Positions 8,853 to 63,972 of a stretch of 64,000 bases of DNA are shown in pieces. Positions within the stretch are counted from its first letter, which is position 1, and every line of letters starts with the position of its first letter. Made by a program: the position numbers and the translations under genes. This stretch comes from Gelidibacter japonicus (GTDB taxonomy: Bacteria; Bacteroidota; Bacteroidia; Flavobacteriales; Flavobacteriaceae): positions 124,001 to 188,000 of the forward strand of contig NZ_BJKB01000005.1 of NCBI RefSeq assembly GCF_010725055.1, given 5' to 3'. The notes beneath the pieces are model-generated. The model had not been told where the DNA came from and made no database searches. It saw nothing but the letters and a program-made list of their open reading frames with translations.

Positions 8853-8921
8853 AAATTCCAAACACTTAAATTCCAAACCCCAATGAAACTTCAATCAACT
8901 GGAATTTGGAATTTGATATAT
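8853..8921. repeat. Heptad-phased inverted AATTCC repeat
   Basis: AAATTCC-AAACACT is followed one base later by AAATTCC-AAACCCC (8853-8881). About 20 bases on, the opposite orientation appears as GGAATTT-GGAATTT-GATATAT (8901-8921). AAATTCCAAA and TTTGGAATTT are perfect complements, so the region can fold. It lies just upstream of the glycosyltransferase start and just past the end of the haem-binding gene. It belongs to the family of 7-base-period intergenic sequences described in the findings. Confidence 0.7.
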
Positions 8922-8936
8922 TTGACTTTAGGGTGT

Positions 8937-9410
8937 TTATTGTGGTTTTGGCTCTAAACTATATTTGAATCTCACTTTTTTACCCCAATCCATAATTGCG
9001 GCTATTTGCGTATCGGTCAATTTGGCTTCAGGATGTGCATAAGTGTAAGATTTTAATGGCATTTCTTTCTTTTCGACCAGTTCAATGAGTTCCTTAAATT
9101 TATGATCTTTCTTCTTGGTAGAATAGTCGTCCCATGCAGAAATATTAAATTCCTTCTTCCCTTCAGCAATATGGTCTGCCAACCAGTAGTTAACAGGTGT
9201 AATCTTATCATACCATGGATATCGGGTAACAGAACTATGGCAATCAAAACAAGTTTCTTTAAGGATATATACTACATCTTCAGGTGGATTGGTGTCTTCT
9301 AAAAAAGATTCAAATGATGACACTTCCCCTTGATTTTTTTCAGGCCCAAAAAATTGCGCCACAGCAAATAGCACCAATAATATCAAAAGTATCTTTTTTA
9401 AATTTTTCAT
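8937..9410 (-). CDS. Haem-binding domain protein (single CxxCH)
   Basis: From the ATG at 9410 the product is 157 residues, beginning with a short basic stretch and one hydrophobic helix (signal or anchor). The body carries a single covalent haem-attachment motif, CFDCH, followed by the SSVTRYPWYDKITPVNYWLADHI-type segment that defines the small flavobacterial haem_bd family. A longer in-frame version starting at 9461 would add 17 hydrophobic residues and overlap the divergent gene at 9447, so the internal ATG is preferred. Its partner and redox role are unknown; the protein should sit in the periplasm or be anchored to the inner membrane. Confidence 0.87.
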   Translation of the reverse strand: MKNLKKILLILLVLFAVAQFFGPEKNQGEVSSFESFLEDTNPPEDVVYILKETCFDCHSSVTRYPWYDKITPVNYWLADHIAEGKKEFNISAWDDYSTKKKDHKFKELIELVEKKEMPLKSYTYAHPEAKLTDTQIAAIMDWGKKVRFKYSLEPKPQ

Positions 9411-9446
9411 TTTGATTAATTTTAGGCTTAAAAATAATAAAAACGA

Positions 9447-10013
9447 GTGACTACCGAGCAACTTTACGCCGAATTAAACCATGTGGACCATTCGCGCGCC
9501 AAACGGTTAAAGTATGCTAATTTAATCCTCTCACAACCTGAATTGATCCCAGTCTTATTGAATATTCTCTTTATGGTAGACGATAAAATTTCCTGCAAAG
9601 CAGCGTGGGTTTTTGAATTTATATGCAGTGAAAATCTCGAAACCATCATTCCGCATTTAGATCAATTTACAGAAAACATTCATAGCGTACATCTCGATCC
9701 AGCCGTCAGACCAGTCGCAAAAGTTTGCGAATATCTGACTAAAGCCTATTACTCAAACTATCAGAATATCTTTCAGAACACTTTGACCAGCACTCATAAG
9801 GAAAGAATCATTGAAGCCTGTTTTGATTGGATGATCAATGATGAAAAAATTGCACCAAAAGCCTATTCTATGAATACCCTCTATTTTTTAGGACAAGAAT
9901 TTGAATGGATCCATCCCGAATTGGCAGTCATTCTGGAACGTGATTTTCAAATGCAAAGTTCGGGTTTCAAGGCTCGAGCGCGGCATATTTTAAAGAAGAT
10001 AAAGCAATCCTGA
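9447..10013 (+). CDS. HEAT-like helical protein next to purB (unknown function)
   Basis: A 188-residue protein starting with GTG. It is rich in helices with a HEAT/ARM-like look: repeated pairs such as YANLILSQPELIPVLLNIL, CKAAWVFEFICSENLETIIPHL and ARHILKKIKQS. There is no signal peptide and no catalytic motif. In Flavobacteriia this gene is commonly found just before purB, and I know it only as a hypothetical protein sometimes mislabelled adenylosuccinate lyase by association. Here 275 bases with their own promoter-like motif separate it from purB, so co-transcription is not required. It diverges from the haem-binding gene, with only 36 bases between starts. Confidence 0.8.
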   Translation: MTTEQLYAELNHVDHSRAKRLKYANLILSQPELIPVLLNILFMVDDKISCKAAWVFEFICSENLETIIPHLDQFTENIHSVHLDPAVRPVAKVCEYLTKAYYSNYQNIFQNTLTSTHKERIIEACFDWMINDEKIAPKAYSMNTLYFLGQEFEWIHPELAVILERDFQMQSSGFKARARHILKKIKQS

Positions 10014-10206
10014 AGTTAAAAACACACAGACTAAGCTCAGGGTTTAGTCCCGTTTGAAAATGTCAAAACGACATAAAATCCGATTTCAAATCTACAATCT
10101 CTTGACAAACCCACATAATTGGAATACGGATTGGCCTTCCCAGCGGAACAAGCAAGTAAATATTATATGGTAATAAAAACATTTCATAAAACTTATAATC
10201 AAACAT

Positions 10207-10241
10207 ACTTCGAGCTTCCTGCTCCTAACTTCTAACTTTCT
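10207..10241 (+). repeat. Heptad array (ACTTCNN/GCTTCCN words) upstream of purB
   Basis: Five consecutive 7-base words can be read without a gap: ACTTCGA, GCTTCCT, GCTCCTA, ACTTCTA, ACTTTCT. The words are close variants of each other and of the array at 22455-22510, 12 kb away. The array ends five bases before the purB -7-like element. Confidence 0.7.
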
Positions 10242-10245
10242 TTAC

Positions 10246-10253
10246 TATCTTTG
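10246..10253 (+). promoter_or_regulatory. Bacteroidota -7 promoter element of purB
   Basis: TATCTTTG matches the TAnnTTTG consensus of the Bacteroidota primary sigma factor and lies 35 bases before the purB ATG. No TTG is found at the usual 19-21 base distance upstream; that space is filled by the heptad array. Confidence 0.55.
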
Positions 10254-10288
10254 CAACTTCTTTTTAACTCAACAAAATAACGCAACCA

Positions 10289-11632
10289 ATGTCATTATCA
10301 TCTTTAAACGCTATTTCTCCCATTGATGGAAGATATAGAAACAAAGTCAATAGCTTAGCCAATTATTTTTCAGAAGAAGCACTCATTAAATATAGGGTTC
10401 AGGTTGAAATCGATTATTTTATTGCCTTATGCGAAATACCGTTGCCTCAACTTAAAGATTTTGATAGTTCCAAATTCGACGATCTAAGAGCAATCTATAC
10501 ACAATTCTCGACGGAAGATGCACTTGCCATTAAAGCCATTGAAAAGGTAACCAACCACGATGTTAAGGCGGTTGAATATTTTATTAAAGAGAAATTTGAT
10601 GCGCTAAATCTACATGCGTACAAAGAATTTATCCATTTTGGCCTGACTTCACAGGATATCAACAACACGGCAGTTCCGCTAAGTATAAAGGAGGCCATGA
10701 ACGATGTTTACGTCCCAGAATATCTGAAGGTGATCAAAAAGCTAAAAGAGCTTTCTAAAGAATGGGCAAACATTCCAATGTTAGCGCGTACGCACGGGCA
10801 ACCGGCATCGCCAACACGTTTAGGAAAAGAAATTGAGGTATTTGTAGTGCGTTTGGAGGAGCAGTTCAATTTATTGAATGACATCCCGAGTGCCGCAAAA
10901 TTTGGTGGAGCTACAGGAAATTTCAATGCACATAAAGTGGCTTATCCTACTATTGATTGGAAAGCATTTGGAACACAATTTGTTCAAGGGAAATTAGGTT
11001 TACAACACTCCTTCCCTACTACACAGATTGAACATTATGACCATATGGCAGCGTTATTTGATAATTTAAAGCGCATCAATACTATCCTCATAGATTTAGA
11101 CAGAGATATGTGGGCTTATGTGTCTATGGATTATTTTAAACAAAAAATAAAAGAAGGCGAAGTTGGCAGTAGTGCCATGCCACACAAAGTCAACCCTATC
11201 GATTTTGAAAATAGCGAAGGTAATCTAGGAATCGCCAATGCCATATTTGAACATTTGTCGGCAAAATTACCTATATCACGTTTACAGCGAGATTTAACAG
11301 ATAGCACCGTATTGAGAAACGTCGGTGTTCCTTTCGGACATACATTAATTGGATTGAAGAGCACGATGACAGGATTGGGCAAATTGGTGTTGAATGAACC
11401 GAAATTCCAGGAAGACCTTGAAAATAATTGGGCCGTTGTTGCAGAAGCCATCCAAACGATTTTAAGAAGAGAGGCCTATCCCAACCCTTATGAAGCATTA
11501 AAGGGATTGACCCGGACCAATACCAAAATTGATCAAAAATCAATTTCGGATTTCATTAATACTTTAGAGGTATCAGAGGCCATCAAAACAGAATTGAAAC
11601 AAATCACACCAAGCAATTACACAGGTATTTAA
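10289..11632 (+). CDS. purB: Adenylosuccinate lyase
   Basis: A 447-residue enzyme of the fumarase/aspartase superfamily. It catalyses two steps, splitting SAICAR to AICAR and adenylosuccinate to AMP, with release of fumarate. Visible motifs are the opening SPIDGRYRNK, the TSQDINNTAVPL region, ARTHGQPASPTRLGKE, and the superfamily signature GSSAMPHKVNP at about residues 292-302, whose serine is the catalytic residue. The length is that of the shorter (E. coli-like) PurB group. It is followed after 2 bases by a small membrane protein gene and then a hairpin terminator, so both form one transcript. Confidence 0.97.
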   Translation: MSLSSLNAISPIDGRYRNKVNSLANYFSEEALIKYRVQVEIDYFIALCEIPLPQLKDFDSSKFDDLRAIYTQFSTEDALAIKAIEKVTNHDVKAVEYFIKEKFDALNLHAYKEFIHFGLTSQDINNTAVPLSIKEAMNDVYVPEYLKVIKKLKELSKEWANIPMLARTHGQPASPTRLGKEIEVFVVRLEEQFNLLNDIPSAAKFGGATGNFNAHKVAYPTIDWKAFGTQFVQGKLGLQHSFPTTQIEHYDHMAALFDNLKRINTILIDLDRDMWAYVSMDYFKQKIKEGEVGSSAMPHKVNPIDFENSEGNLGIANAIFEHLSAKLPISRLQRDLTDSTVLRNVGVPFGHTLIGLKSTMTGLGKLVLNEPKFQEDLENNWAVVAEAIQTILRREAYPNPYEALKGLTRTNTKIDQKSISDFINTLEVSEAIKTELKQITPSNYTGI

Positions 11633-11634
11633 AG

Positions 11635-11820
11635 ATGAACCAAATTGACTTTATCGGACGCATTCTTTCAGGAGCTGTTGGCATTGGTTTTTTAATTGCC
11701 GGTATTTTTGACGTGCTCGATTACTTTATAGTGAAGTTTTTATTGTTCGGAACTTTCATTTTTCTTGTGCTCTATATGTTTATTAGATTATATGAAAACG
11801 AAAATCACCCAGAACCTTAA
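11635..11820 (+). CDS. Small two-helix membrane protein
   Basis: A 61-residue product with two hydrophobic segments (about residues 8-25 and 31-50) and a short charged tail YENENHPEP. It starts 2 bases after the purB stop, and its own stop codon lies inside the left arm of the terminator hairpin. I do not recognise a family. Tight coupling to purB and the good membrane-protein pattern suggest it is a real gene, but no function can be proposed. Confidence 0.65.
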   Translation: MNQIDFIGRILSGAVGIGFLIAGIFDVLDYFIVKFLLFGTFIFLVLYMFIRLYENENHPEP

Positions 11821-11837
11821 TCGTTCCTGGGTGATTT
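11803..11837 (+). terminator. Terminator of purB operon
   Basis: AATCACCCAG and CTGGGTGATT form a strong stem, with a few inner bases (AAC/GTT) also able to pair around a short loop. A T-rich run follows (TTTTCAATATT). The stop codon of the 61-residue gene lies in the loop region. Confidence 0.8.
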
Positions 11838-11975
11838 TCAATATTGAAAACACATTGTTTTCCAGCAGTGGGTTTAAATACCCTAACTTGCCTTGATTAA
11901 AAAGACAATTTTTTGTTCCTTCCTCATAGCATAGGTTTGCTTGCCCGTACCGTTTCTGAGGGTCTTGATTACTGG

Positions 11976-12521
11976 TTATTTGAAAAACTCAGTAAACTGA
12001 CTGAGTTGTGAATCGCTAATATTTGCTTTGTCCAATGCAGATGCCAAAGTCATGATTTTATTTGGGTTCATGTCATTTCCCAAGATCCTTACAATGGCAA
12101 ACCCCCTGTTATCGATATTTCCAAATAGGATGAACTCCTCAACATCATCCTCATCGCCCAAAATCTTGATGCTGAAGGTCCCATCTTCAGGATTACCCCC
12201 ACGCATCAGCTCTTCGTATTTAGGATTGTCTAAAATAGTTTTCACTTTTGCCATTTCCTCTGCATATTGCATCGTATTGTCAGGGGTAACTTTATAAGCC
12301 AACATATTCAATTTTTGGATGGATTTATAAGCGTCCTTTTGGTCTTGGGTCAACTGTTCCTTATCAAGGTTCAACATACTTAAAGGTACATCTATCGAAA
12401 GAAAGTTGGGCTGCTCCTGATTGTCAACGTAATAACGTTGTAATGATGGCCCTTGATCGCAACTGTAAAGCGTTGCGACCAAGAGGATCATTCCTGTTAG
12501 ATTTTTGATTAATGATTTCAT
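11976..12521 (-). CDS. DUF4252 lipoprotein
   Basis: A 181-residue protein with a lipoprotein signal ending LLVATLYSC (Cys21), followed by Asp-Gln-Gly. It matches DUF4252, a Bacteroidota family usually found in pairs behind an ECF sigma factor and its anti-sigma protein, as here. The C-terminal half includes the DVEEFILFGNIDNRGFAIVRILG strand pair common to the family. It is the last gene of the four-gene unit and starts 2 bases after the upstream DUF4252 gene ends. Its role is unknown; a cell-envelope location follows from the lipid anchor. Confidence 0.9.
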   Translation of the reverse strand: MKSLIKNLTGMILLVATLYSCDQGPSLQRYYVDNQEQPNFLSIDVPLSMLNLDKEQLTQDQKDAYKSIQKLNMLAYKVTPDNTMQYAEEMAKVKTILDNPKYEELMRGGNPEDGTFSIKILGDEDDVEEFILFGNIDNRGFAIVRILGNDMNPNKIMTLASALDKANISDSQLSQFTEFFK

Positions 12522-12523
12522 AA

Positions 12524-13150
12524 TTATTGTTTTTTACCTTTTCCGGCCTTTTCAAGATGCTCTCCGCCAGGAACATTCATTTTACTCGTGATTTTGGATA
12601 TCTCTCTCAAATCTACATCACCAATAATGGAGACCAAGATCGTTTCAATCTCTCTCTTTTCACCATTGATTTCAATGTTGGCGTCTTTGGTCAATTCTTT
12701 CAATCCACTAATAAACATTAATAGCTCTTTGACATGGTTTTCATCACGTCCTTCCTTGACGTAAAACTTTACCGTTTGGCCACCATCTTTAAAACGCATC
12801 AATTCATCCAATTTTGAGCTGCTAATATACTTCTCGGTATCGGCCGATAAACTTGAAGAAATATTTGAATCGCCAGTACTTAGTACTTTGATACTCTGGA
12901 TTTTTTTGACCATATCCAAAAAGCCTTGGGCTTCCGGATCATCAAGATCCACATCAATAGTGGCAATCATTTTAAACATTTTTTGACTGATCACTCCGGA
13001 CGTCACGCCCTTCATGGATTCATATTTATCAAAAAAGCTCTGTCCAAAGGATAGCATTGGCGCAATTAAAATGGCCAATAAAACAACTGCTTTTTTGCTC
13101 ACGTCTCTCTTCTTTTGGAGATATATGCGAAGGTTTTTTAAATTTCTCAT
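12524..13150 (-). CDS. DUF4252 secreted protein
   Basis: A 208-residue paralogue of the next gene. It has a long basic N-terminus and a hydrophobic signal ending LSFGQ (signal peptidase I type, no lipobox Cys). The DUF4252 body contains a KVLSTGDSNISSSLSADTEKYI-like stretch and an EINGEKREIETILVSIIGDVDL segment. It lies 20 bases downstream of the putative anti-sigma gene and 2 bases before the second DUF4252 gene. Target or effector of the sigma system are both possible; neither is shown by sequence. Confidence 0.9.
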   Translation of the reverse strand: MRNLKNLRIYLQKKRDVSKKAVVLLAILIAPMLSFGQSFFDKYESMKGVTSGVISQKMFKMIATIDVDLDDPEAQGFLDMVKKIQSIKVLSTGDSNISSSLSADTEKYISSSKLDELMRFKDGGQTVKFYVKEGRDENHVKELLMFISGLKELTKDANIEINGEKREIETILVSIIGDVDLREISKITSKMNVPGGEHLEKAGKGKKQ

Positions 13151-13170
13151 AATTTCTTTATTTAATCAGG

Positions 13171-13683
13171 TTACTTGTTTTTAATTATTCTGTTTGTTGC
13201 TTTGTTAAATTCTTTAATATGGATCAGGTTTTCAGCACCTTCGTTCAACTTGGAGGACACTAAAGTTAAAGCTCCTAAATTGTTCGAACCTTTATTGAGT
13301 TTAGAAGACACTAAGTTAAAGACCTCCATGGTTTGGTTGTATGCCATTAATTGCTCGTGGCTCAAATCATCCAAAGTTGTTTTCTGATTCATTTGGCTCA
13401 CTTGAAAATAAGCACCCAACATAAGAACCGCTACGGCTGCGACTGAAATCCACTGGTACACTTTTGTACGTTTAGTCCCGACCGCTTTTGGGAGTAATGG
13501 AACGTCTTTGGTAAACTGTTCTTCTTTTGCATGCGAAACGTATTGAAACAAGAGCTTATAAGACTCTAAATGTTCTGGCACATCTTCTTCGGCAAAAAAA
13601 GCTCTTATTTCTGCTTCTTCAGCTAAACTTGTTTCAGCATTATCGTATTTTTCTAAAAGTTGTTCTATATTAATTAAGCCCAT
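13171..13683 (-). CDS. Putative anti-sigma factor (single-pass membrane protein)
   Basis: A 170-residue protein. Its first about 80 residues are cytosolic and helical, with the INIEQLLEKYDNAETSLAEEAEIRAFF pattern seen at the start of many flavobacterial anti-sigma proteins. One transmembrane helix follows (WISVAAVAVLMLGAYF) and a small periplasmic tail with two related copies of LVSSKLN(K/E)G. Its coding region overlaps the end of the sigma gene by 14 bases, so translation is probably coupled. Family membership is inferred from position and topology more than from a diagnostic motif. Confidence 0.75.
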   Translation of the reverse strand: MGLINIEQLLEKYDNAETSLAEEAEIRAFFAEEDVPEHLESYKLLFQYVSHAKEEQFTKDVPLLPKAVGTKRTKVYQWISVAAVAVLMLGAYFQVSQMNQKTTLDDLSHEQLMAYNQTMEVFNLVSSKLNKGSNNLGALTLVSSKLNEGAENLIHIKEFNKATNRIIKNK

Positions 13684-14179
13684 AGCTGTGTTTTTTAGTC
13701 AATTTTTCTCGTATTGTTTTTCTTGCCCTCGATAAGGCAACTCTTACTGCTGTTTCATTCATTTCCAAAACCTTTGCAATCTCATCAAAATCATACTCTT
13801 CGATATCTCTGAGCTGCACAATTATCTTTTGCTGTTCTGGCAACTCCTCCATAATCTTAGAAACCCAGTCCACACTATCATTGAGTTCCACTTGCTTTTG
13901 CAAAGAGACGTTATGATCCTGATAATTGCTGTGGACAATTTTTAAGTTCTGCGCCTGTTTTGATTTTAATCGGTCCAAACACAAATTCTTGGCCATGGTC
14001 ATTGAATAAGCTTCCACATTTTTATAATCTTCGATTTTCTCATTGTTGTTCCATAATCTTATTAAGATCTCTTGCGTGGCATCTTCAGCTTCCTCTTTAG
14101 AGACCAAAAGCCGTTTGGCAAGTCTATAGACTTTATCCTTAAAAGGCAGTACCAATTTTACAAAATCACTTTGTGTCAT
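13670..14179 (-). CDS. RNA polymerase ECF sigma factor
   Basis: A 169-residue sigma-70 family regulator of the extracytoplasmic-function class. Region 2 shows LAKRLLVSKEEAEDATQEILIRLWNN and the YSMTMAKNLCLDRLK helix. Region 4 is a helix-turn-helix, EYDFDEIAKVLEMNETAVRVALSRARKTIRE. It heads a unit with an overlapping anti-sigma-like gene and two DUF4252 genes. Self-activation is usual for such units, but I cannot read the promoter with confidence. Confidence 0.94.
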   Translation of the reverse strand: MTQSDFVKLVLPFKDKVYRLAKRLLVSKEEAEDATQEILIRLWNNNEKIEDYKNVEAYSMTMAKNLCLDRLKSKQAQNLKIVHSNYQDHNVSLQKQVELNDSVDWVSKIMEELPEQQKIIVQLRDIEEYDFDEIAKVLEMNETAVRVALSRARKTIREKLTKKHSYGLN

Positions 14180-14332
14180 TATGGTTAGTTTTATAACAGA
14201 TGAGTTAAACCTGTTTCTATTCTTACGACGAAAGACTTTCAGTTTTGTTACAAATATTTTTGATTTTACAATAATGTAAGTAAATTTCGAGTTAAATTAC
14301 CGACCAATTAATTGATAATAAAAAAAAGTCCC

Positions 14333-15808
14333 ATGAAAATTTTAAAATTTGCCCTTTTTGCCCTGGTTGTATTTAGCTTAAACGTGAGCTGTTCTAAAGA
14401 TAAGGATGATGAAGTCCCGCCTCCAGCAGTCGTCAAGAATGAAATCAATGATTTTATCTGGACAGCTATGAACTTTGCTTATCTCTATAAGGCAGATATT
14501 CCAAATTTAGCAGACAATCGGTTTGCTACCGATGAAGCTTATACAAATTATATAAACGGATATTCCGTACCTGAAGAGTTTTTCGAAAGTTTAATTTATC
14601 AAAGAGAAGTCGTTGATCGTTTTAGTTTTATAACATCCGACTATGTTGCTTTGGAGCAGCAATTTCAGGGAGTATTTAAAAGCAATGGTCTAGAGTCCAA
14701 TTACTATTATCAGCCAGGCAGCAACAGTAAGGTGTTCGGAGTTATTAGATTGGTGTTGAACGACAGCGAAGCAAGTGCCGCTGGCCTGAAACGTGGACAG
14801 GTTTTTAATGCGATAGATGGAGTTCCAATGACTGTGGACAACTTTAATACGCTCTTAAATCAAGAAACTTACACATTAAATTTTGCCACCTACAACGACA
14901 ACGGTACATCTACTCCCGATGATGATTTCTTGGAATCAACATCTGAGACCGCTACATTGACCAAAAAACCTTATACCGAGAATCCTGTACATACCACCAA
15001 AGTACTGGACATCAATGGTTCGAAAATTGGATATTTAATGTACACTAGTTTTACTAGTAATTTTGATCCTCAGTTAAATGAAGCTTTTGGGGAATTTAAA
15101 ACTGAAGGCGTTCAACATTTGGTTTTAGATTTAAGATACAATGGTGGTGGATCAGTCAATACCGCATCGCTTTTGGCAAGTATGATCACCGGTCAATTTA
15201 ATGGTCAGGTTTTTTCCAAGCTTGTTTGGAATGAAAATTTGCAATCAGAAAACACCTCATACACATTCAAGAGCAGTGCACCTGGCGGCGTTGGCACCAT
15301 TAATTCCCTTAATCTAGATAAAGTCTATGTTTTGACAACAAGCAGAACAGCTTCTGCCAGTGAGTTGATTATCAACGGCCTGTCTGCATATATTGATGTG
15401 ATTCAAATTGGGGATAGAACTACAGGGAAATCCCAAGCTTCGGTGACCTTATATGACTCGGACAACTTTTCCAAACAAAACGCAAATCCAAGCCATAAAT
15501 ACGCCATTCAACCCTTAGTGGCCGTTTCTGTTAATAAAGATGATGAGCGCGTACCTCCTAACGGATTTTTGAGTGATATGGAGCAATTTAGGATGAGAGA
15601 AGCCGTGAACAATCTTGGTATTTTGGGTGATGCCAGCGAACCATTTCTGGCAAAAGCAATAGCTAACATTACCGGAAGTGGACGACCATTTCCAACGGTT
15701 GATCAGAATCTGATTCCTTTAAAAGATCATGTTGATACGAAATTGTTAGATAATGAAATGTATATCGATATCCTGGACCATCTGCCAGCATTTCAAAATC
15801 TGAGATAA
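14333..15808 (+). CDS. S41-family (tail-specific type) protease, lipoprotein
   Basis: From the ATG at 14333 the protein has 491 residues, a lipoprotein-type signal ending FSLNVSC, and then Ser-Lys-Asp-Lys-Asp-Asp-Glu, which fits the Bacteroidota signal for surface-exposed lipoproteins. A PDZ-like stretch (EASAAGLKRGQVFNAIDG) precedes the S41 catalytic domain, with DLRYNGGGSVN, the nucleophile-bearing SRTASASELI and GDRTTGKSQA. A TTG 21 bases earlier is in frame but adds only a few residues. The protein probably cleaves or senses envelope proteins. It is monocistronic and ends at a strong two-way terminator. Confidence 0.92.
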   Translation: MKILKFALFALVVFSLNVSCSKDKDDEVPPPAVVKNEINDFIWTAMNFAYLYKADIPNLADNRFATDEAYTNYINGYSVPEEFFESLIYQREVVDRFSFITSDYVALEQQFQGVFKSNGLESNYYYQPGSNSKVFGVIRLVLNDSEASAAGLKRGQVFNAIDGVPMTVDNFNTLLNQETYTLNFATYNDNGTSTPDDDFLESTSETATLTKKPYTENPVHTTKVLDINGSKIGYLMYTSFTSNFDPQLNEAFGEFKTEGVQHLVLDLRYNGGGSVNTASLLASMITGQFNGQVFSKLVWNENLQSENTSYTFKSSAPGGVGTINSLNLDKVYVLTTSRTASASELIINGLSAYIDVIQIGDRTTGKSQASVTLYDSDNFSKQNANPSHKYAIQPLVAVSVNKDDERVPPNGFLSDMEQFRMREAVNNLGILGDASEPFLAKAIANITGSGRPFPTVDQNLIPLKDHVDTKLLDNEMYIDILDHLPAFQNLR

Positions 15809-15822
15809 AACCATAAACCAAT

Positions 15823-15853
15823 AAAAAAAGCCGCTGAAATAGCGGCTTTTTTT
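15823..15853. terminator. Bidirectional terminator between S41 protease and btuG
   Basis: A perfect 13-bp stem (AAAAAAAGCCGCT / AGCGGCTTTTTTT) with loop GAAAT. It has an A-run on one side and a T-run on the other, so it can terminate the two converging transcripts. Confidence 0.92.
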
Positions 15854-18770: not shown

Positions 18771-18810
18771 AATCTAAAGGCTCTTTACCCGAAAGCCGTT
18801 TTAAATGATG

Positions 18811-18981
18811 AAATTGGCAGGTCTCCTGACTTGCGTCTTCATGTTTGCCTTCCCATTTCGCTAATCGAAACAGTGACTTGAAGTGTAACATGAAGCTTTA
18901 TAGCTTACAGTTGCGGGAACAGTTTTGGATTTTAACCAAATTCCCTTTTAATTGACATAGATTATTATATCAAACCAAATT
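18811..18981 (-). promoter_or_regulatory. Cobalamin riboswitch upstream of btuB-btuG
   Basis: Read on the minus strand the region contains the conserved core: GGGAA, then GGTTAAAATCC, ACTG, TTCCCGCAACTGTAA, and near the 3' end the B12 box AAGTCAGGAGACCTGCC (18816-18832). The outer stem P1 can form between AATTTGG (18975-18981) and CCAATTT (18811-18817) with one mismatch, which defines the limits. About 40 bases separate it from the btuB ATG, including a weak GGCTTT/AAAGagCC hairpin that could be part of the expression platform. Binding of the cofactor is expected to reduce btuB-btuG expression. Confidence 0.95.
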
Positions 18982-18986
18982 CGGTG

Positions 18987-18994
18987 CAAAAATA
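18987..18994 (-). promoter_or_regulatory. -7 element driving the riboswitch transcript
   Basis: On the minus strand TATTTTTG fits TAnnTTTG and sits 6 bases before the first base of riboswitch stem P1, the right place for transcription to start at the aptamer. No clear TTG -33 element is seen. Confidence 0.55.
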
Positions 18995-21333: not shown

Positions 21334-21361
21334 GATTAGGGATTAGGCATGAGGGATTAGG
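21334..21361 (+). repeat. GATTAGG heptad array
   Basis: Four in-phase 7-base words: GATTAGG, GATTAGG, CATGAGG, GATTAGG, beginning 8 bases after the permease stop codon; one more GATTAG follows out of phase by a base. Confidence 0.8.
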
Positions 21362-21491
21362 GGATTAGTAGGCGTTGAGAGGTGAGAGTGAAAGGTAAAA
21401 GTTCAGTGAAATTTAGATTTTAAAAGAAAAAGCAATAATAATGAGTATCTTCTATTCAAGATAGAATATCGAAGTTTTGAACATTAAATTC

Positions 21492-21568
21492 AGACAACAG
21501 AAAACAGATAACAGATAACAGATAACAGAATATAGAATATAGAATATAGAATATAGAATATAGAAATT
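21492..21568 (+). repeat. Eleven-word heptad array (AGATAAC/AGAATAT)
   Basis: The sequence reads without slippage as AGACAAC, AGAAAAC, AGATAAC x3, AGAATAT x5, AGAAATT. All words share AGA at the same phase and the composition changes stepwise along the array. It ends 17 bases before the GTG start of the ATPase gene, so it forms most of that gene's leader. The AGAATAT and AGATnAC words recur beside the four-helix-bundle gene at 63576. Confidence 0.93.
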
Positions 21569-21584
21569 TGAAAAGATAACACAC

Positions 21585-22380: not shown

Positions 22381-22510
22381 TTTCGGTCGGCAGTATGCAG
22401 TATTGAGTTGACAGTTTGACATTAATTATCGACTAATCTCAACTTTATACTTTTACTTCATGCTGCCAACTTCGCGCTTCCAACTTCGTGCTTCCAGCTC
22501 CATGCTTCAC
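22381..22510. repeat. Double heptad array with partial inverted symmetry
   Basis: First array (22381-22422): TTTCGGT, CGGCAGT, ATGCAGT, ATTGAGT, TGACAGT, TTGACAT. Second (22455-22510): ACTTCAT, GCTGCCA, ACTTCGC, GCTTCCA, ACTTCGT, GCTTCCA, GCTCCAT, GCTTCAC. GGCAGTATGCAGTA in the first is close to the reverse complement of the start of the second (GGCAGCATGAAGTA, 12 of 14 bases), so the two can fold onto each other. The block fills the gap between the ATPase gene and rmuC. Confidence 0.8.
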
Positions 22511-22584
22511 GCCCAATCTTCCACCATAGCACACCCATCATCTTTGGAAAAAAAATCTATCTTTGATAAAACTGACTTTTTTAA

Positions 22585-24558: not shown

Positions 24559-24573
24559 AATATCAATCAAAAA

Positions 24574-24622
24574 GATGATATTTGTATTTATCATCATAAA
24601 ACGTGATAATTATACTTATCAC
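24574..24622 (+). promoter_or_regulatory. Twin operator sites RTGATA-N8-TATCAY
   Basis: Site 1 (24574-24595) is GATGATA-N8-TATCATC, a perfect 7-bp inverted repeat. Site 2 (24603-24622) is GTGATA-N8-TATCAC, also perfect. Their centres are 28 bases apart and both lie between the predicted transcription start and the satD ATG, the position expected for a repressor that blocks elongation or initiation. The satD product has a C-terminal helix-turn-helix and is the likely ligand-free or ligand-bound binder (inference). Confidence 0.75.
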
Positions 24623-30291: not shown

Positions 30292-30308
30292 TGTGTTGAG
30301 TTATTTTT

Positions 30309-30330
30309 CAGTGTTCAGTGTTCAGTGTTC
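30309..30330 (-). repeat. Three-copy heptad repeat CAGTGTT upstream of carB
   Basis: CAGTGTT is present three times in tandem (30309-30329, plus-strand reading) followed by one more C. It starts 18 bases upstream of the carB ATG, inside the probable leader or promoter. Copy number changes in units of 7 would alter spacing there. Confidence 0.85.
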
Positions 30331-48506: not shown

Positions 48507-48552
48507 AAAATCTCGAATTCCAATCATTTAGACTTGGAATTTGGGATTTTTA
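48507..48552. terminator. Heptad-type inverted repeat between convergent genes
   Basis: AAAAATCTCGAATTCCAA and TTGGAATTTGGGATTTTT pair over 18 bases with two mismatches around a 10-base loop, with A-run and T-run at the ends. It can act as a two-way terminator between the Spy-like gene and the convergent BNR-type gene. The TTGGAAT/TTGGGAT words are of the same family as those at 8853-8921. Confidence 0.75.
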
Positions 48553-58806: not shown

Positions 58807-58926
58807 ATGTAATGTTAATAATTGCGCAAAAGTACAAATAACTGTTTAACCAAGTTCGATTCGGAAGATTTAAAAGACTTCATAAATGAATTGGAATCTG
58901 ATATTTAATTCATAAAAAATATTTTT

Positions 58927-58964
58927 AATTTATTATGCGTGCATAGTAAATTTTTGTATATTTG
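58927..58964 (+). promoter_or_regulatory. MarR operator overlapping the beta-oxidation promoter
   Basis: AATTTATTATGC-GT-GCATAGTAAATT (58927-58952) is a 26-base inverted repeat with one mismatch. It ends 4 bases before the -7 element TATATTTG (58957-58964), so it covers the -33 region. The size and symmetry are typical of MarR-family operators, and the first gene of the transcript encodes a MarR protein. Confidence 0.75.
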
Positions 58965-58982
58965 GAATCCTTATGAATTACA

Positions 58983-59435
58983 ATGAAAGATAAAACCATT
59001 GATTATGTTCTTAGAACCACTTGGTTAGCGGTTACTAAAATGTACAACGAAGAAGCTTCAAAGTTTGACAGTACAATGGCGACAGGCTTCGCACTACTAA
59101 GCATCGATCCAGAAAAAGGAACGCCTTCAACCGCCATGGGTCCGAAAATGGGCATGGAAGCCACAAGCCTATCCAGAACCTTAAAGTCGATGGAAGCTCG
59201 TGGTTTGATTGAGCGGCGTCCCAATCCTGATGACGGACGTGGTGTTCTGATTTTTCTAACCGATTTTGGAAAGAAAAAACGAGCTTACTCTAAAGAAAAA
59301 GTACTGACTTTTAATGAGGCCATACGTAAAAACACCTCAGAAGAACAGTTGCAGCATTTTTATGAGGTGGCTGAAATCATCAATAATATGATCTCCAATA
59401 AAAATATATACAACCAAAAAGAAAATAGTTTATAA
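58983..59435 (+). CDS. MarR-family transcriptional regulator
   Basis: A 150-residue winged-helix regulator: TTWLAVTKMYNEEASKFDS helix, AMGPKMGMEATSLSRTLKSMEARGLIERRPNPDDGRGVLIFLTDFGKKKR (recognition helix and wing), and a C-terminal dimerisation helix. It heads the beta-oxidation transcript, 4 bases before the dehydrogenase gene, with a palindrome over its own promoter. It probably represses the operon and is released by a fatty acyl-CoA, as FadR/FabR-type MarR proteins are (inference). Confidence 0.94.
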   Translation: MKDKTIDYVLRTTWLAVTKMYNEEASKFDSTMATGFALLSIDPEKGTPSTAMGPKMGMEATSLSRTLKSMEARGLIERRPNPDDGRGVLIFLTDFGKKKRAYSKEKVLTFNEAIRKNTSEEQLQHFYEVAEIINNMISNKNIYNQKENSL

Positions 59436-59439
59436 TAAT

Positions 59440-61833
59440 ATGAGCAAACGTAGAATAAAAAAAGTAGCCATTATAGGCTCTGGGATTATGGGAAGCGGTA
59501 TTGCATGTCACTTTGCCAATATAGGTGTTGACGTATTACTTCTTGATATTGTTCCTAGAGAATTGAATGATGCTGAAAAAGCTAAAGGACTGACCTTAGA
59601 GGACAAAGCCGTTAGAAACAGAATTGTTAACGATTCTTTGACTGCTTCCCTAAAATCGAAGCCCTCTCCTATTTATCATCAATCGTTCGCCAGCAGGATT
59701 ACGACTGGTAACCTTGAGGATGACATTGCCAAAGTAAAAGATGTCGATTGGATCATGGAGGTTGTTGTTGAGCGCTTGGACATTAAGAAACAGGTCTTTG
59801 AAAAACTTGAAAATCACAGGACTCCTGGAACTTTGATTACCTCAAACACCTCAGGGATTCCGATTCATTTTATGAGTGAAGGCCGAAGTGAAGATTTCCA
59901 AAAGCATTTCTGTGGAACTCACTTTTTTAATCCTGCACGCTACTTGAAATTATTTGAAATTATTCCTGGACCAAAAACATCTCAAGAAGTATTGGATTTC
60001 TTGAATAATTATGGTGAAAAATTCCTTGGAAAAACTTCAGTTATCGCAAAAGATACGCCGGCCTTTATCGGAAATCGTATTGGGATTTTTGGAATCCAAA
60101 GCCTCTTCCACCAAGTTAAGGAAATGGATTTGACGGTTGAAGAAGTTGATAAGTTGACTGGGCCTGTTATTGGACGTCCTAAATCGGCCACCTTCAGGAC
60201 CGTTGACGTCGTTGGTTTGGATACTTTGGTACATGTTGCCAATGGTATTTATGAAAACTGTCCTGATGATGAAGCTCACGAGCTTTTTAAACTTCCAGAT
60301 TTTATCAATAAAATGGTGGAAAACAAATGGTTTGGAAGTAAAACCGGACAAGGCTTTTATAAAAAGGAAGGGAAGGACATTAGGACCTTGGATTTAAACA
60401 CCCTTGAATATAGAGATCGAAAATCGGCACGATTTGCCACCTTAGAGTTGACTAAAACCGTTGACAAGGTCATTGATCGTTTTCCGATTTTAATTTCAGG
60501 AAAAGATAAAGCCGGAGAGTTTTACAGAAAGAATTTTGCAGCGATGTTTGCTTATGTTTCTAACAGAATTCCAGAAATAACAGACGAGCTTTATAAAATA
60601 GATGATGCCATGAAAGCCGGATTTGGCTGGGAACATGGTCCTTTTCAAATTTGGGACGCCGTTGGTGTCGAAAAAGGTATCGAATTGATGAAAGCCGAAG
60701 GTTTAAAACCTGCTGCTTGGGTGAATGAGATGTTGGAATCTGGAAACAAATCGTTTTACACTGTTAAAGAAGGAAATACGTTCTTTTACGATATTCCATC
60801 CAAAAAACAAGAAAAAGTACCAGGACAAGATGCGTTTATCATCTTGGATAACATACGTAAGTCCAAAGAAGTTTACAAGAACTCAGGTGTTGTTGTTGAA
60901 GATTTAGGAGACGGTATCTTGAATGTCGAATTCCAATCTAAAATGAACACGATTGGTGGCGATGTGCTTTCTGGGTTGAACAAAGCGATTGACCTTGCTG
61001 AAAAAGATTTCGCAGGATTGGTAGTAGGAAATCAAGCGGCAAACTTCTCGGTTGGTGCCAATATTGGCATGATTTTCATGATGGCAGCCGAACAAGAGTA
61101 CGACGAGCTTAATACGGCCATCAAATATTTCCAGGATACGATGATGCGCATGCGTTATTCGGCAATCCCAACGGTTGCTGCACCTCACGGGATGGCTCTT
61201 GGTGGTGGTTGTGAATTATCCATGCACGCAGATAAAGTAGTTGCTGCTGCCGAAACCTATATCGGACTGGTAGAGTTTGGTGTTGGGGTGATTCCCGGTG
61301 GAGGCGGCTCTAAAGAAATGGCGCTCCGTGCCCAAGATACGTTTAGAAAAGGTGATGTTGAGTTGAACACACTTCAAGAGTATTTCTTGACTGTTGCGAT
61401 GGCCAAAGTATCCACTTCTGCTTATGAAGCTTTCGACTTAGGAATTCTTCAAAAAGGAAAAGATATTGTCGTTGTGAATAAAGACAGACAATTGGCGACT
61501 GCCAAAGCACACGCTCAACTTATGGCCGATGCTGGGTATACACAACCTGTTAAACGAAACGATATTAAAGTGCTTGGCAAACAAGCCTTAGGGATGTTTA
61601 TGGTTGGAACAGACGCCATGGAAGACAGCAATTACATCAGTGAACACGATCGAAAAATCGCAAATAAATTAGCTTATGTCATGGCTGGAGGCGATTTATC
61701 AGAACCAACGTTGGTCAATGAGCAATATTTATTGGATTTGGAACGTGAAGCATTTTTGTCACTTTGTACAGAGAGAAAAACTTTGGAAAGAATTCAACAT
61801 ATGTTGAAGACGGGCAAACCTTTACGGAATTAA
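59440..61833 (+). CDS. 3-hydroxyacyl-CoA dehydrogenase / enoyl-CoA hydratase fusion
   Basis: A 797-residue bifunctional enzyme of fatty-acid beta-oxidation. The N-terminal half is the dehydrogenase: NAD-binding GSGIMGSGIACHFAN, catalytic HFFNPARYLKL and the Asp-Thr-Pro-Ala-Phe-Ile-Gly-Asn-Arg motif. The C-terminal half is the enoyl-CoA hydratase: GVQAANFSV-like strand, GMALGGGCELSMHAD (near residue 587) and GLVEFGVGVIPGGGG carrying the two Glu. The domain order (dehydrogenase first) matches B. subtilis FadN, not E. coli FadB. The TAA stop falls inside the first heptad word that borders the four-helix-bundle gene. Confidence 0.95.
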   Translation: MSKRRIKKVAIIGSGIMGSGIACHFANIGVDVLLLDIVPRELNDAEKAKGLTLEDKAVRNRIVNDSLTASLKSKPSPIYHQSFASRITTGNLEDDIAKVKDVDWIMEVVVERLDIKKQVFEKLENHRTPGTLITSNTSGIPIHFMSEGRSEDFQKHFCGTHFFNPARYLKLFEIIPGPKTSQEVLDFLNNYGEKFLGKTSVIAKDTPAFIGNRIGIFGIQSLFHQVKEMDLTVEEVDKLTGPVIGRPKSATFRTVDVVGLDTLVHVANGIYENCPDDEAHELFKLPDFINKMVENKWFGSKTGQGFYKKEGKDIRTLDLNTLEYRDRKSARFATLELTKTVDKVIDRFPILISGKDKAGEFYRKNFAAMFAYVSNRIPEITDELYKIDDAMKAGFGWEHGPFQIWDAVGVEKGIELMKAEGLKPAAWVNEMLESGNKSFYTVKEGNTFFYDIPSKKQEKVPGQDAFIILDNIRKSKEVYKNSGVVVEDLGDGILNVEFQSKMNTIGGDVLSGLNKAIDLAEKDFAGLVVGNQAANFSVGANIGMIFMMAAEQEYDELNTAIKYFQDTMMRMRYSAIPTVAAPHGMALGGGCELSMHADKVVAAAETYIGLVEFGVGVIPGGGGSKEMALRAQDTFRKGDVELNTLQEYFLTVAMAKVSTSAYEAFDLGILQKGKDIVVVNKDRQLATAKAHAQLMADAGYTQPVKRNDIKVLGKQALGMFMVGTDAMEDSNYISEHDRKIANKLAYVMAGGDLSEPTLVNEQYLLDLEREAFLSLCTERKTLERIQHMLKTGKPLRN

Positions 61834-61938
61834 GTACAAAGTATTAAGTACAAAGACGGTTAATCATGACATATGGTTTATGGAATACCTAATGCATTTA
61901 AATAGAACTAAATTCACTTAATACTAACATCTTAATAC
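61830..61938. repeat. Left border repeats of first four-helix-bundle insertion
   Basis: TTAAGTACAAAG is repeated 14 bases apart (61830-61841 and 61844-61855), with GTATTAA between. Further on TTAATAC-TAACATC-TTAATAC (61918-61938) is heptad-phased and ends 8 bases before the ATG. GTATTAA is the reverse complement of TTAATAC. Confidence 0.8.
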
Positions 61939-61946
61939 CAATAAAC

Positions 61947-62303
61947 ATGCACAGATTCGAAGAGCTAAAAATATGGCAAAAAGCAATGGATATTACTGAA
62001 AACTGCTATCGAGCCACTGAGAATTTCCCTGAAGAAGAGAAATATGGATTGACTTCTCAGCTTAGAAAAAGTGCAATTTCTATTCCTTCAAATATCGCTG
62101 AAGGAGCAGGAAGAAACACAAATGGAGAATTTATGCAGTTTCTTGGAATTGCTAATGGATCATCATTTGAATTACTAACACAATTATACTTGTCTAAAAG
62201 ATTAGATTTAATAACAGAAGATAAAGTAAGACCAATTATTAATGAGGTACTTGAAGTTAGTAAAATGAATTATTCTCTTCAAAGAACACTCAAAAAGTCT
62301 TAA
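61947..62303 (+). CDS. Four-helix-bundle protein (23S rRNA intervening-sequence family)
   Basis: A 118-residue protein of the S23/IVP family, related in fold to the Avd accessory protein of diversity-generating retroelements. Family markers: FEELKIWQKAMDITENCYR, YGLTSQLRKSAISIPSNIAEGAGR and SFELLTQLYLS. There is no 23S rRNA here and no reverse transcriptase. It lies between two beta-oxidation genes that are normally adjacent, and is bordered by 7-base repeats, its own stop overlapping the first downstream TTAATAC. This looks like a later insertion that did not break the operon. Confidence 0.94.
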   Translation: MHRFEELKIWQKAMDITENCYRATENFPEEEKYGLTSQLRKSAISIPSNIAEGAGRNTNGEFMQFLGIANGSSFELLTQLYLSKRLDLITEDKVRPIINEVLEVSKMNYSLQRTLKKS

Positions 62304-62328
62304 TACTTAATACTTAAAATCTTAATAC
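62300..62328. repeat. Right border repeats of first four-helix-bundle insertion
   Basis: TTAATAC, TTAATAC, TTAAAAT, then C and TTAATAC: four 7-base words that match those on the left side of the gene. They end 5 bases before the thiolase ATG. Confidence 0.85.
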
Positions 62329-62333
62329 AAATT

Positions 62334-63527
62334 ATGAGCAAACAAGCTTACATAGTAAAAGCATACAGAACCGCAGTTGGGAAAGCACCTAAAGGCGTGT
62401 TCCGATTTAAAAGAGCCGATGAATTGGGTGCTGAAACCATTCAGCACATGATGAAAGATTTACCAAATCTTGATGTGAAACGAATAGATGACGTCATGGT
62501 GGGCAACGCCATGCCAGAAGGCTCGCAAGGCTTGAACATGGCACGTTTTATTTCGTTGATTGGCTTGGACAGTGTTGATGTACCGGGAGTGACGGTCAAT
62601 CGATTTTGTTCTTCGGGATTAGAAACCATTGCCATGGCGACTGCAAAAATTCAATCTGGAATGGCCGAATGTATCATTGCAGGAGGTGCTGAAAGTATGA
62701 GTTCGGTTCCAATGACCGGATTCAAACCAGAACTGAACTATGACATCGTTAAATCTGGTCATGAAAGCTATTACTGGGGCATGGGAAATACGGCAGAAGC
62801 AGTCGCCAAACAGTTTAAAGTATCTCGTGAAGACCAAGATGAATTCGCCTACCATTCACATATGAAGGCTTTAAAAGCACAGGCAGAAAATCGTTTTCAG
62901 GATCAGATTGTACCTATCACGGTGGATCAGACTTACGTAGATCCTAACGGTAAAAAAGCAACCAAATCTTACACAGTCACAAAAGATGAAGGTCCAAGGG
63001 CAGGAACGAGCATAGAAGTGCTGGCAAAGTTACGTCCGGTATTTGCTGCAAACGGCAGTGTTACGGCAGGGAACTCATCACAAATGAGTGACGGTGCAGC
63101 CTTCGTAATGATTATGAGCGAAGCAATGGTCAAGGAATTGAATCTTGAGCCAATTGCGCGCTTAGTCAATTATGCCGCTGTGGGTGTCGAACCTCGCATT
63201 ATGGGTATCGGTCCGGTAAAAGCCATTCCAAAAGCATTAAAATTGGCAGGTTTGGAGCAGAAAGATTTGGAATTGATCGAATTAAACGAGGCTTTTGCAT
63301 CGCAATCCATAGCAGTGATCAGAGAACTCAATTTGAATCCAGACATCGTCAATGTCAACGGTGGCGCCATCGCCTTGGGCCATCCACTAGGATGTACTGG
63401 TGCAAAATTATCGGTGCAGCTGTTTGATGAGATGCGCAAACGCAATATGCAAGGCAAATATGGAGCAGTCACGATGTGCGTTGGTACAGGACAAGGGGCT
63501 TGTGGGGTGTTTGAATTCCTCCATTGA
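62334..63527 (+). CDS. Acetyl-CoA acyltransferase (thiolase)
   Basis: A 397-residue thiolase that cleaves 3-ketoacyl-CoA with CoA in the last step of beta-oxidation. Catalytic residues: nucleophile Cys in VNRFCSSGLE (near 92), LNEAFASQS, His in ALGHPLGCTGA (near 348) and the second Cys in CVGTGQGACG (near 382). Long form, as in FadA/FadI rather than a biosynthetic thiolase. It follows the dehydrogenase/hydratase gene except for the inserted small gene. Confidence 0.96.
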   Translation: MSKQAYIVKAYRTAVGKAPKGVFRFKRADELGAETIQHMMKDLPNLDVKRIDDVMVGNAMPEGSQGLNMARFISLIGLDSVDVPGVTVNRFCSSGLETIAMATAKIQSGMAECIIAGGAESMSSVPMTGFKPELNYDIVKSGHESYYWGMGNTAEAVAKQFKVSREDQDEFAYHSHMKALKAQAENRFQDQIVPITVDQTYVDPNGKKATKSYTVTKDEGPRAGTSIEVLAKLRPVFAANGSVTAGNSSQMSDGAAFVMIMSEAMVKELNLEPIARLVNYAAVGVEPRIMGIGPVKAIPKALKLAGLEQKDLELIELNEAFASQSIAVIRELNLNPDIVNVNGGAIALGHPLGCTGAKLSVQLFDEMRKRNMQGKYGAVTMCVGTGQGACGVFEFLH

Positions 63528-63536
63528 TGAGATAAT

Positions 63537-63571
63537 AGAATATAGAAAAGAGAAAATAGATTACAGAATTT
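63537..63571. repeat. Left border heptads of second four-helix-bundle insertion
   Basis: Five words in phase: AGAATAT, AGAAAAG, AGAAAAT, AGATTAC, AGAATTT. They begin 10 bases after the thiolase stop and end 5 bases before the ATG of the small gene. AGAATAT also forms the core of the 21492-21568 array. Confidence 0.85.
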
Positions 63572-63575
63572 CAGA

Positions 63576-63932
63576 ATGGGGTTTAGAAAACGTCATAATT
63601 ATAAAAACTTGAAAATTTGGCTATTAGCTTTAGAGATAGCAAATGATATTTCTGATTTATTGATAGAGTTCCCAAAACATGAACGTTATGATCTAACTTC
63701 TCAATTGAGTAGGTGCTCCGTATCAATACCAAGCAATATTGCCGAAGGCTCTGCGAAAACTGATAAATCATTTAGCAATTATCTCGATATTTCCTTAGGG
63801 TCTTCCTTTGAATTAGGAACTCAATTATTGATAGCAAAACACAGAAAATATATAAACGAACAAAATTTAAAAATGCTCGAAGAAAAAATAGAAGAATTCC
63901 AAAGAATGACAATGGATTCCAAAATGGACTAA
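63576..63932 (+). CDS. Four-helix-bundle protein (23S rRNA intervening-sequence family), second copy
   Basis: A second 118-residue member of the S23/IVP family, with NLKIWLLALEIANDISDLL, RYDLTSQLSRCSVSIPSNIAEGSA and SLGSSFELGTQLLIAKH. It is clearly homologous to the first copy but well diverged, so it is not a fresh tandem duplication. It again stands in a gap between beta-oxidation genes (thiolase and the gene that starts at 63986) and is flanked by heptad-phased repeats in opposite orientations. Confidence 0.94.
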   Translation: MGFRKRHNYKNLKIWLLALEIANDISDLLIEFPKHERYDLTSQLSRCSVSIPSNIAEGSAKTDKSFSNYLDISLGSSFELGTQLLIAKHRKYINEQNLKMLEEKIEEFQRMTMDSKMD

Positions 63933-63941
63933 ATAAATAGT

Positions 63942-63972
63942 CTATTTTCTATACTCTATTTTCTCTCTTCTT
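63942..63972. repeat. Right border heptads of second four-helix-bundle insertion
   Basis: CTATTTT, CTATACT, CTATTTT, CTCTCTT, then CTT. Read on the other strand these are AAGAGAG, AAAATAG, AGTATAG, AAAATAG, close to the left-border words, so the two borders form an inverted pair (shared AGAGAAAATAGA, 12 bases). Confidence 0.85.

Follow-up and report, generated by a model that had tools for sequence, protein, structure and literature searches.

Tandem heptamer arrays as a regular part of intergenic IVP cassettes in Gelidibacter japonicus and other bacteria

Features of the locus

The window analysed here, a whole stretch of 64,000 nt from Gelidibacter japonicus (contig NZ_BJKB01000005.1, positions 124,001 to 188,000), carries near its right end two small cassettes, each consisting of a gene for a 118-amino-acid protein of family PF05635 (23S_rRNA_IVP, also annotated S23 or 'four helix bundle protein'; IVP below) with arrays of tandem 7-nt words at its ends. 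The elements are intergenic cassettes that resemble the intervening sequences (IVSs) of 23S rRNA, and their parts are as follows.

61826..61857, plus strand: left arm of cassette 1, with AAGTACA/AAGTATT words; begins at the stop codon of the upstream open reading frame (ORF) 59440-61833, has a Tandem Repeats Finder (TRF) match at 61829-61855, and pairs with the right arm in the RNA fold
61916..61939, minus strand: inner array of cassette 1 in the opposite orientation, ACTTAAT ACTAACA TCTTAAT by eye, 5' of IVP1
61947..62303, plus strand: IVP1 gene, 118 amino acids, PF05635 23S_rRNA_IVP at E 2.3e-39; its bAvd match is weak and under the cut-off
62297..62328, minus strand: right arm of cassette 1, with CTTAATA words, which repeat the left-arm word in reverse complement; extends over the stop codon of IVP1; TRF match at 62299-62328
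62334..63527, plus strand: thiolase gene, between both cassettes; the site was compared in nine genomes of the genus
63529..63569, plus strand: left arm of cassette 2, with AGAATAT/AGAAAAT words; TRF match at 63529-63568
63576..63932, plus strand: IVP2 gene, 118 amino acids, PF05635 at E 9.3e-31
63939..63973, minus strand: right arm of cassette 2, with CTATTTT/CTATACT words, the reverse complement of the left-arm word; the arms pair in the fold

RNA folding closes both cassettes by their arms (z -2.37 for cassette 1 and -2.20 for cassette 2). An Rfam scan of the window returned no rRNA, and the cassettes adjoin the thiolase gene rather than lying inside rRNA. The genome holds 13 matches to the PF05635 family, ten of them with a lag-7 array scoring at least 8 (the score is described below) on at least one side, and by eye most of these loci have one word inverted on both sides, the word differing from copy to copy. 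Six of the 13 matches (L013, L014, L015, L018, L019, L020) contain in-frame stops, so that the cassettes seem to decay often; five of these six loci keep a lag-7 array scoring at least 8.

A period of seven in intergenic DNA

For each lag k, arrays were scored as maximal stretches in which a base matches the base k positions further on, and the genome was sampled as the window plus 20 stretches of 20 kb, together 464 kb out of 4.67 Mb. The first-pass annotation had reported a constant 7-base period in eight or more non-coding places with different words, and had put this forward for comparison with lags 5, 6, 8 and 9 and with control sequence. The period is borne out by that comparison: arrays scoring at least 14 number 12 at lag 7 and 11 at lag 14, which is a multiple of 7, as against 0 or 1 at every other lag from 4 to 13, all 12 of the lag-7 arrays are intergenic, and a first-order Markov (Markov-1) control sequence contains no lag-7 array at that score. 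Mean intergenic identity is 0.3003 at lag 7, compared with 0.2858, 0.2936, 0.2905 and 0.2904 at lags 5, 6, 8 and 9, and the coding DNA of the sample has no lag-7 excess. The lag-7 pattern in this genome is thus real.

At the eight places themselves, each padded by 10 nt, lag 7 tops lags 5 to 9 in every case, with p between 0.005 and 0.04 against 200 Markov-1 sequences of the window's intergenic composition. Maxima are strong at 21334-21568 (57.6), at 30309-30330 (17.0) and at the edges of 61830-62328 (12.0) and 63537-63972 (12.6), and weak, from 6.7 to 9.0, at 8853-8921, 10207-10241, 22381-22510 and 48507-48552. The description of the places as non-coding requires correction for 61830-62328 and 63537-63972, which each hold a 118-amino-acid IVP gene and have heptamers at the ends only; likewise the words lie in phase at lag 7, but some places are pairs of inverted arrays rather than direct ones, and words, said to vary only slightly within a place, can switch inside a single array. 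The combination of many words with one step supports the proposal of a shared mechanism rather than the spread of one repeat.

Heptamer arrays at IVP genes across phyla

The association of arrays with IVP genes was followed in 240 IVP loci, mostly from Bacteroidota and also from Cyanobacteria and Proteobacteria, that remained after the removal of eight duplicates. Several of the locus sets hold at most 30 of the matches listed per search, and the 39 loci of the genus represent fewer independent sites. A set of named loci comprises the best 80 of at least 583 and is skewed to one IVP subfamily because the wide scan used a narrower alignment; seven of 79 named loci lie outside Bacteroidota.

A lag-7 array scoring at least 11 lies within 200 nt on at least one side of 133 of the 240 loci, and one scoring at least 8 at 184. 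Among 175 scorable elements the best period is 7 in 154, 8 in 14, 6 in three, 9 in three and 12 in one. In the genus, arrays scoring at least 11 within 200-220 nt occur on the left and right of 15/39 and 14/39 loci, against 10/270 and 8/270 for control genes of the window's genome. Other genera of the family give 17/60 on either side at lag 7, with five and two at lag 8 and no more than two per side at the other lags from 4 to 12; the named loci give 32/80 and 33/80, with at most two per side at any other lag; and the gammaproteobacterial loci give 23/29 and 16/29, where the other lags contribute a single array, at lag 12. Arrays of this score also adjoin 12 of 15 plasmid-borne IVPs (14 cyanobacterial and one from Azospirillum), including 11 of the 14 cyanobacterial ones, which upholds the parallel with cyanobacterial heptamers drawn in the first-pass annotation; two of the three remaining plasmid IVPs, both cyanobacterial, have a period of about 8.

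Arrays also concentrate close to the gene. For the family and named sets together their density is 4.5 per kb up to 75 nt from the gene and 0.01-0.29 past 300 nt or, counted per intergenic kb, 7.4 within 75 nt versus 1.2-1.9; in gammaproteobacteria the density per intergenic kb goes from 17.3 near the gene to 0.7-10.2. That IVP cassettes regularly include heptamer arrays we regard as close to certain.

Several single cases deserve mention. The fourteen elements in which period 8 is best (L129, L153, L245, L317 and L280 among them) offer a possible natural test of a period set by the protein. An IVP gene lies between cas6 and cas4 of CRISPR loci, at about 1480-1860, on plasmids of Pseudanabaena galeata (L271) and Anabaena sp. 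90 (L275); L275 has an annotated type I-D cas1d, and in both the neighbouring genes are separated by further heptamer arrays. Contig C1 of the gammaproteobacterial genome G457 (1.5 Mb) has ten weak IVP matches at spaced positions with only two distinct scores, which looks like recent multiplication.

Anatomy of the cassettes

The figures on opposite sides, arm matching, A-G core, word-protein link and dN/dS given in this and the following two sections include four loci (L021, L233, L243, L322) still measured at a neighbouring IVP, while the counts of loci, period and neighbours place these at the right IVP, in a check by position that applied to all loci except 32 truncated at a contig end. 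A word learned on one side of an IVP gene recurs on the other side in at least three in-phase inverted copies in 80 of 119 tests, versus 9 of 119 when the other side is taken from a random other IVP; the commonest number of opposite-side copies is four, followed by five and two in equal measure, with more than five in 13/119. Opposite-side copies numbering at least three are inverted in 81/121 cases and direct in 27/121. At the genus loci the inverted-repeat match between left and right flanks has a median of 28, against 18 for swapped or control flanks, and the resemblance extends beyond the word, for the two arms of an element are more alike than arms taken from different elements whose words are similar (31.6 vs 24.8, p 2e-7, 81 elements).

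The median start of the left array is 4 nt past the stop codon of the upstream ORF, with 47 of 90 loci falling within -7 to +10. Both neighbours are co-directional with the IVP gene at 168 of 174 genus, family and named loci, compared with 102 of 173 size-matched control genes, and the same arrangement is found at 17/23 gammaproteobacterial, 10/15 plasmid and 9/11 further loci. This sense location between co-directional neighbours points to action in the transcript, and we consider it likely that the IVP system acts on RNA. Read in the sense of the IVP gene, the words share a core of A (0.75) followed by G (0.87) at adjacent positions, with C rare; the information of this core is 2.32, versus a maximum of 1.81 in 15 column-permuted controls.

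Word and protein: probable inheritance, and exchange at one site

Related IVPs have related words, in a test that excluded genus-genus pairs. Identical consensus words are found in 10 of 17 pairs at protein identities of at least 85%, in 26 of 82 at 70-85%, in 28 of 498 at 55-70%, and in no more than 0.7% at lower identities. The word similarity of nearest protein neighbours is 0.495 versus a permutation mean of 0.411 (maximum of 2000: 0.431). Similarity is raised above the baseline of about 0.40 also at sites with unrelated flanks, being 0.553 for 13 pairs at 70-85% and 0.475 for 64 pairs at 60-70%; sites with homologous flanks give 0.539 and 0.515 in the same ranges. One clade with variants of a single word joins IVPs of cyanobacterial plasmids (L277, L281, L283) with a gammaproteobacterial one (L347) at 64-69% identity. 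The word is probably inherited with the protein. The first-pass annotation went somewhat too far in holding that the 7-base steps are made regardless of sequence: related proteins have more similar words, there is a common A-G core, and the best period is 8, 6, 9 or 12 in 21 of the 175 elements.

The site of the thiolase gene illustrates exchange. Downstream of it, among the nine genomes of the genus, the genome of the window and G013 have the AGAAAAT cassette, five carry another IVP, whose arms are of the CAAGAGCC type, and the remaining two only another hairpin; between G013 and G125 the flanks of this site are 91-92% identical while the IVPs and words differ. Upstream of the thiolase gene, the AAGTATT cassette stands in three genomes; in two its place is taken by an ORF-less hairpin whose arms are of the AGAAAAT type, and in the remaining four by another hairpin, which in one genome was seen only in part. 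Also beside the thiolase gene, in G121, G124, G123 and G120 (L286-L289), stands an ORF-less hairpin family, CCCATCCCAACCTTCCC ... GGTTAGGGATAGG, or CCCTCTCC variants, at sites that have IVP cassettes in relatives.

The IVP protein

To our knowledge S23/IVP proteins have no established function. The AlphaFold2 (AF2) model of IVP1 has a mean pLDDT of 96, and a Foldseek search with it matched Xcc0516 (2gsc, TM 0.90-0.94) and BT_0352 (2rld, TM 0.79-0.82), the closest structures, released in 2006 and 2007 with five chains each. Avd of the diversity-generating retroelements (DGRs) has the same fold as the model (4dwl, TM 0.78-0.81), as have chains of DGR ribonucleoproteins (8ubb/8ub7/8ube, TM 0.76-0.79), at 11-13% sequence identity of the Avd-type matches to IVP1. 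The title of the Xcc0516 paper, as it stands in the reference list of PMC10053308, names five four-helix bundles, and PF05635 is said, in the portion of PMC10053308 available, to be similar to Avd and to occur more often than any other family in the DGR data of that study. Twelve of 13 pairs of IVP orthologues have dN/dS of 0.02-0.19, some of them with saturated dS, the thirteenth being not computable; the low ratios indicate that purifying selection acts on the protein.

Orphan arrays and ORF-less hairpins

The window contains further heptamers, all outside the two cassettes.

8853..8921, no strand: possible ORF-less hairpin, each arm made up of AAATTCC-type words by eye; lag-7 p 0.01
10207..10241, no strand: weak heptameric stretch, p 0.01
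21334..21395, plus strand: orphan array, GATTAGG then TGAGAGG, 7 nt past a FecCD gene
21491..21573, plus strand: orphan array, CAGATAA then AGAATAT (the word class of IVP2, by eye); lag-7 score 57.6
22391..22517, no strand: possible ORF-less inverted pair, a CAGTATG array followed by a GAAGCGC-type array on the other strand; pairing by eye, p 0.04
30307..30330, no strand: orphan array, TTCAGTG; lag-7 score 17.0
48507..48552, no strand: weak heptameric stretch, possibly a hairpin, between convergent ORFs; p 0.025

Across the family, 13 IVP-free genomes yielded three orphan arrays in 563 kb, and 22 IVP-bearing genomes 27 in 1347 kb, of which 22 come from two genomes; the genus of the window and the relatives G071 and G023 are rich in such arrays and most other sampled genomes poor. 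Orphan words fit the IVPs of the genus better than they fit three other IVP sets (p 0.008, 0.035 and 2e-5), weakly supporting a match between orphan words and the words of resident IVPs. Relative to the nearest gene, the AG-containing strand of the orphan arrays is sense in 12 cases, antisense in four and unassigned in four in this genome, and sense in 14, antisense in six and unassigned in two in two relatives. On balance we lean towards regarding the orphan arrays and ORF-less hairpins as derivatives or targets of the IVP system.

Two other features of the window were noted. An imperfect repeat of about 28 nt, rich in ATCAT/ATGAT and not heptameric, lies at 24561-24621, 3' of the ORF after the RmuC gene, and the only Rfam match is a cobalamin riboswitch at 18799-18994 on the minus strand (RF00174, 108.9 bits).

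Comparison with known systems

The short tandemly repeated heptamers (STRR) of filamentous cyanobacteria, the GGGAATC repeats of Xanthomonas and the TAACTGA repeats of Beggiatoaceae are, as in the window, tandem 7-nt units in intergenic DNA; we know of no accepted cause for the heptamer repeats of these or other bacteria. As described in the available parts of PMC4692102 and PMC4679880, such repeats are of single words, whereas this genome has many; the same parts contain no mention of a four helix protein or of intervening sequences, and for the heptamers of Xanthomonas and Nostoc the available part of PMC4692102 describes no protein partner. A GGGANTC x4 pattern was found in four of 369 gammaproteobacterial genomes, all four of which belong to the 77 genomes that have an IVP match, in one case only below the family cut-off; a reversed control pattern was found in five of the 369, two of them with IVP, so that arrays of this class also occur with words other than GGGANTC. 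In G499, whose listed matches are GGGAATC, an IVP is flanked by GGGAATC arrays in inverted orientation.

With the IVSs of 23S rRNA the cassettes of the window share an S23/IVP ORF and terminal inverted repeats, and IVP cassettes in general share the sense orientation in the transcript. They differ in that IVSs lie in rRNA, whereas the cassettes lie between protein genes, use many words and have ORF-less and orphan counterparts. A direct bridge is provided by Azospirillum lipoferum 4B, where an IVP element lies inside large-subunit rRNA and its heptameric ends, GAGGACGGATGACAGAGGACGGAGGACAGA and an inverted copy, pair into a long stem (z -9.7); here a genuine IVS of 23S rRNA has a stem built of heptamer arrays. 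For Coxiella, the part of PMC4990558 at hand describes GACAGAT in three tandem copies upstream of the S23 ORF, with a copy number that varies between strains, and an IVS with a 28-bp terminal stem that is cleaved by RNase III in vitro. This is the sole instance linking a heptamer array with an IVP protein that we found in the openly licensed literature, as far as its accessible text goes, and that is no proof of absence. Known separately, in sources seen in part, were thus the IVSs, the heptamer repeats, the five-chain S23 structures and the one heptamer case of Coxiella; a general association across phyla, a link of word and protein, and cassettes within operons were not met in the openly licensed literature searched.

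For a possible mode of action we look to TRAP, whose fold is unrelated to that of IVP. The likeness that we propose is that of a ring oligomer on tandem AG-containing RNA words, one per subunit; the two differ in that TRAP has 11 subunits against a presumed five, and in that the step of IVP is 7 nt and its binding putative. TRAP is described, in the part of PMC4027176 available, as taking 11 (G/U)AG repeats on its 11 subunits, one word to each.

Interpretation

Our best overall explanation, which we put forward tentatively and at somewhat less than even confidence, is the following. A cassette would be a small transcribed unit built around an IVP/S23 gene, which is read in sense and mostly fills the space that separates two co-directional genes. 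A short array of the heptamer word that belongs to this IVP stands close to the stop codon of the upstream gene, and most cassettes have an inverted array past the stop of the IVP gene. The cassettes of the window would be intergenic relatives of 23S rRNA intervening sequences. The protein would fold into a homopentamer like Avd, along whose ring single-stranded RNA might run with about one 7-nt word per subunit, as TRAP does with (G/U)AG, the step being fixed by ring geometry and the word by clade-specific contacts. A pentamer reading one word per subunit would explain a step near seven for any word, the prevalence of four to five words and the A-G core, and the S23 link may explain the period of seven. 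For this part alone, that a pentamer sets the period and reads the array one word per subunit, we see a possibility worth raising but have considerable doubt.

A number of observations weigh against this explanation. Neither side has a lag-7 array scoring at least 8 at 56 of the 240 IVP loci, three of them among the 13 of the own genome, and the 21 of 175 elements with another best period depart from the rule; three IVPs of the MDFKKL clade (L058, L062, L142), for instance, have CAGTCT-type arrays of period 6 while other clade members have period 7. The preference for four or five copies is partly a product of the thresholds used. In the genus the density of arrays per intergenic kb drops only slightly with distance (5.3 within 75 nt vs 1.2-6.0 beyond), and neighbouring gaps hold arrays in other sets too. 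Among own-genome sampled arrays scoring at least 12, 20 of 22 lie more than 600 nt from any IVP, the density of orphan arrays in 35 family genomes is unrelated to IVP number (Mann-Whitney p 0.28, Spearman 0.08), and orphan words fit the genus IVPs no better than the gammaproteobacterial set (p 0.78). At 70-85% protein identity, words are identical in 26 of 69 pairs if the flanks are homologous and in one of 13 if they are unrelated, so much of the link between word and protein may be descent at one site. Finally, IVPs were examined in three of the genomes that have GGGANTC arrays, and this word was seen at the IVP of G499 only, those of G256 (L331, L398, L399) and G466 (L343, L396) having other words or none; G341 lay outside the comparison.

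The most probable of the alternatives is that the arms serve as an RNA hairpin only, that is, as a cleavable or protective mRNA stem in the style of RNase III substrates, renewed by the tandem repeats, with words that the protein does not read. The arms do pair in both window cassettes and in Azospirillum, they match beyond the word, ORF-less hairpins exist, and in vitro the Coxiella IVS is a substrate of RNase III (PMC4990558, available in part). We nevertheless think this unlikely, since it leaves the dominance of period seven, the A-G core and the word-protein link unexplained, and a strong inverted partner was not seen for most of 20 orphan arrays.

Alternatively, arrays or hairpins might come first and act as landing sites into which IVP elements insert, in keeping with the abundance of orphan arrays in this genome and with the ORF-less hairpins that relatives have at the orthologous sites. 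An element that inserted into a direct array, however, would have the words in one orientation on both sides, contrary to the excess of inverted over direct copies described above, and at one site the words change between relatives together with the IVP; we rate this account as improbable.

Polymerase slippage with a slip step of about 7 nt could make heptamers anywhere, IVP genes being merely among the places, and heptamers are reported to be over-represented in bacterial long simple repeats, with slippage proposed as the cause, in the available parts of PMC4679880 and PMC4692102, citing Mrazek. The distance of 20 of 22 own-genome arrays from any IVP and the lack of a genome-level correlation with IVP number sit well with such a process. 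We give it little credence, since it fails to account for the concentration of arrays within 75 nt of IVP genes, the same inverted word on most pairs of sides, the more similar words of related proteins, or arms that match beyond the word, and we know of no neutral process that would yield inverted pairs of one word around a single gene family in several phyla. Equally improbable in our view is a retro-element, in which a host or DGR-type reverse transcriptase copies the cassette RNA with IVP as an accessory like Avd and arrays grow by template slippage: the fold match to Avd and the DGR ribonucleoprotein, the standing of PF05635 in DGR data (PMC10053308, available in part) and the sense orientation of the cassettes would suit it, but we know of no reverse transcriptase acting on IVP cassettes, none having been searched for.

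Extended to its full breadth, the pentamer explanation leads us to a speculation that we consider unlikely as a whole: IVP/S23 proteins would be widespread pentameric, TRAP-like readers of tandem 7-nt RNA words with a clade-specific, evolvable code, cassettes and orphan arrays would control operon mRNAs post-transcriptionally in trans, and ring geometry would be the reason why bacterial long simple repeats favour period seven. At the thiolase site of the nine genomes, the cassettes and hairpins that occupy the gaps between operon genes are exchangeable, and regulatory change could arise from them. If the arrays and IVP belong together, each would help to explain the other: the period would have its reason in the protein, and the protein would have a ligand in the arrays.

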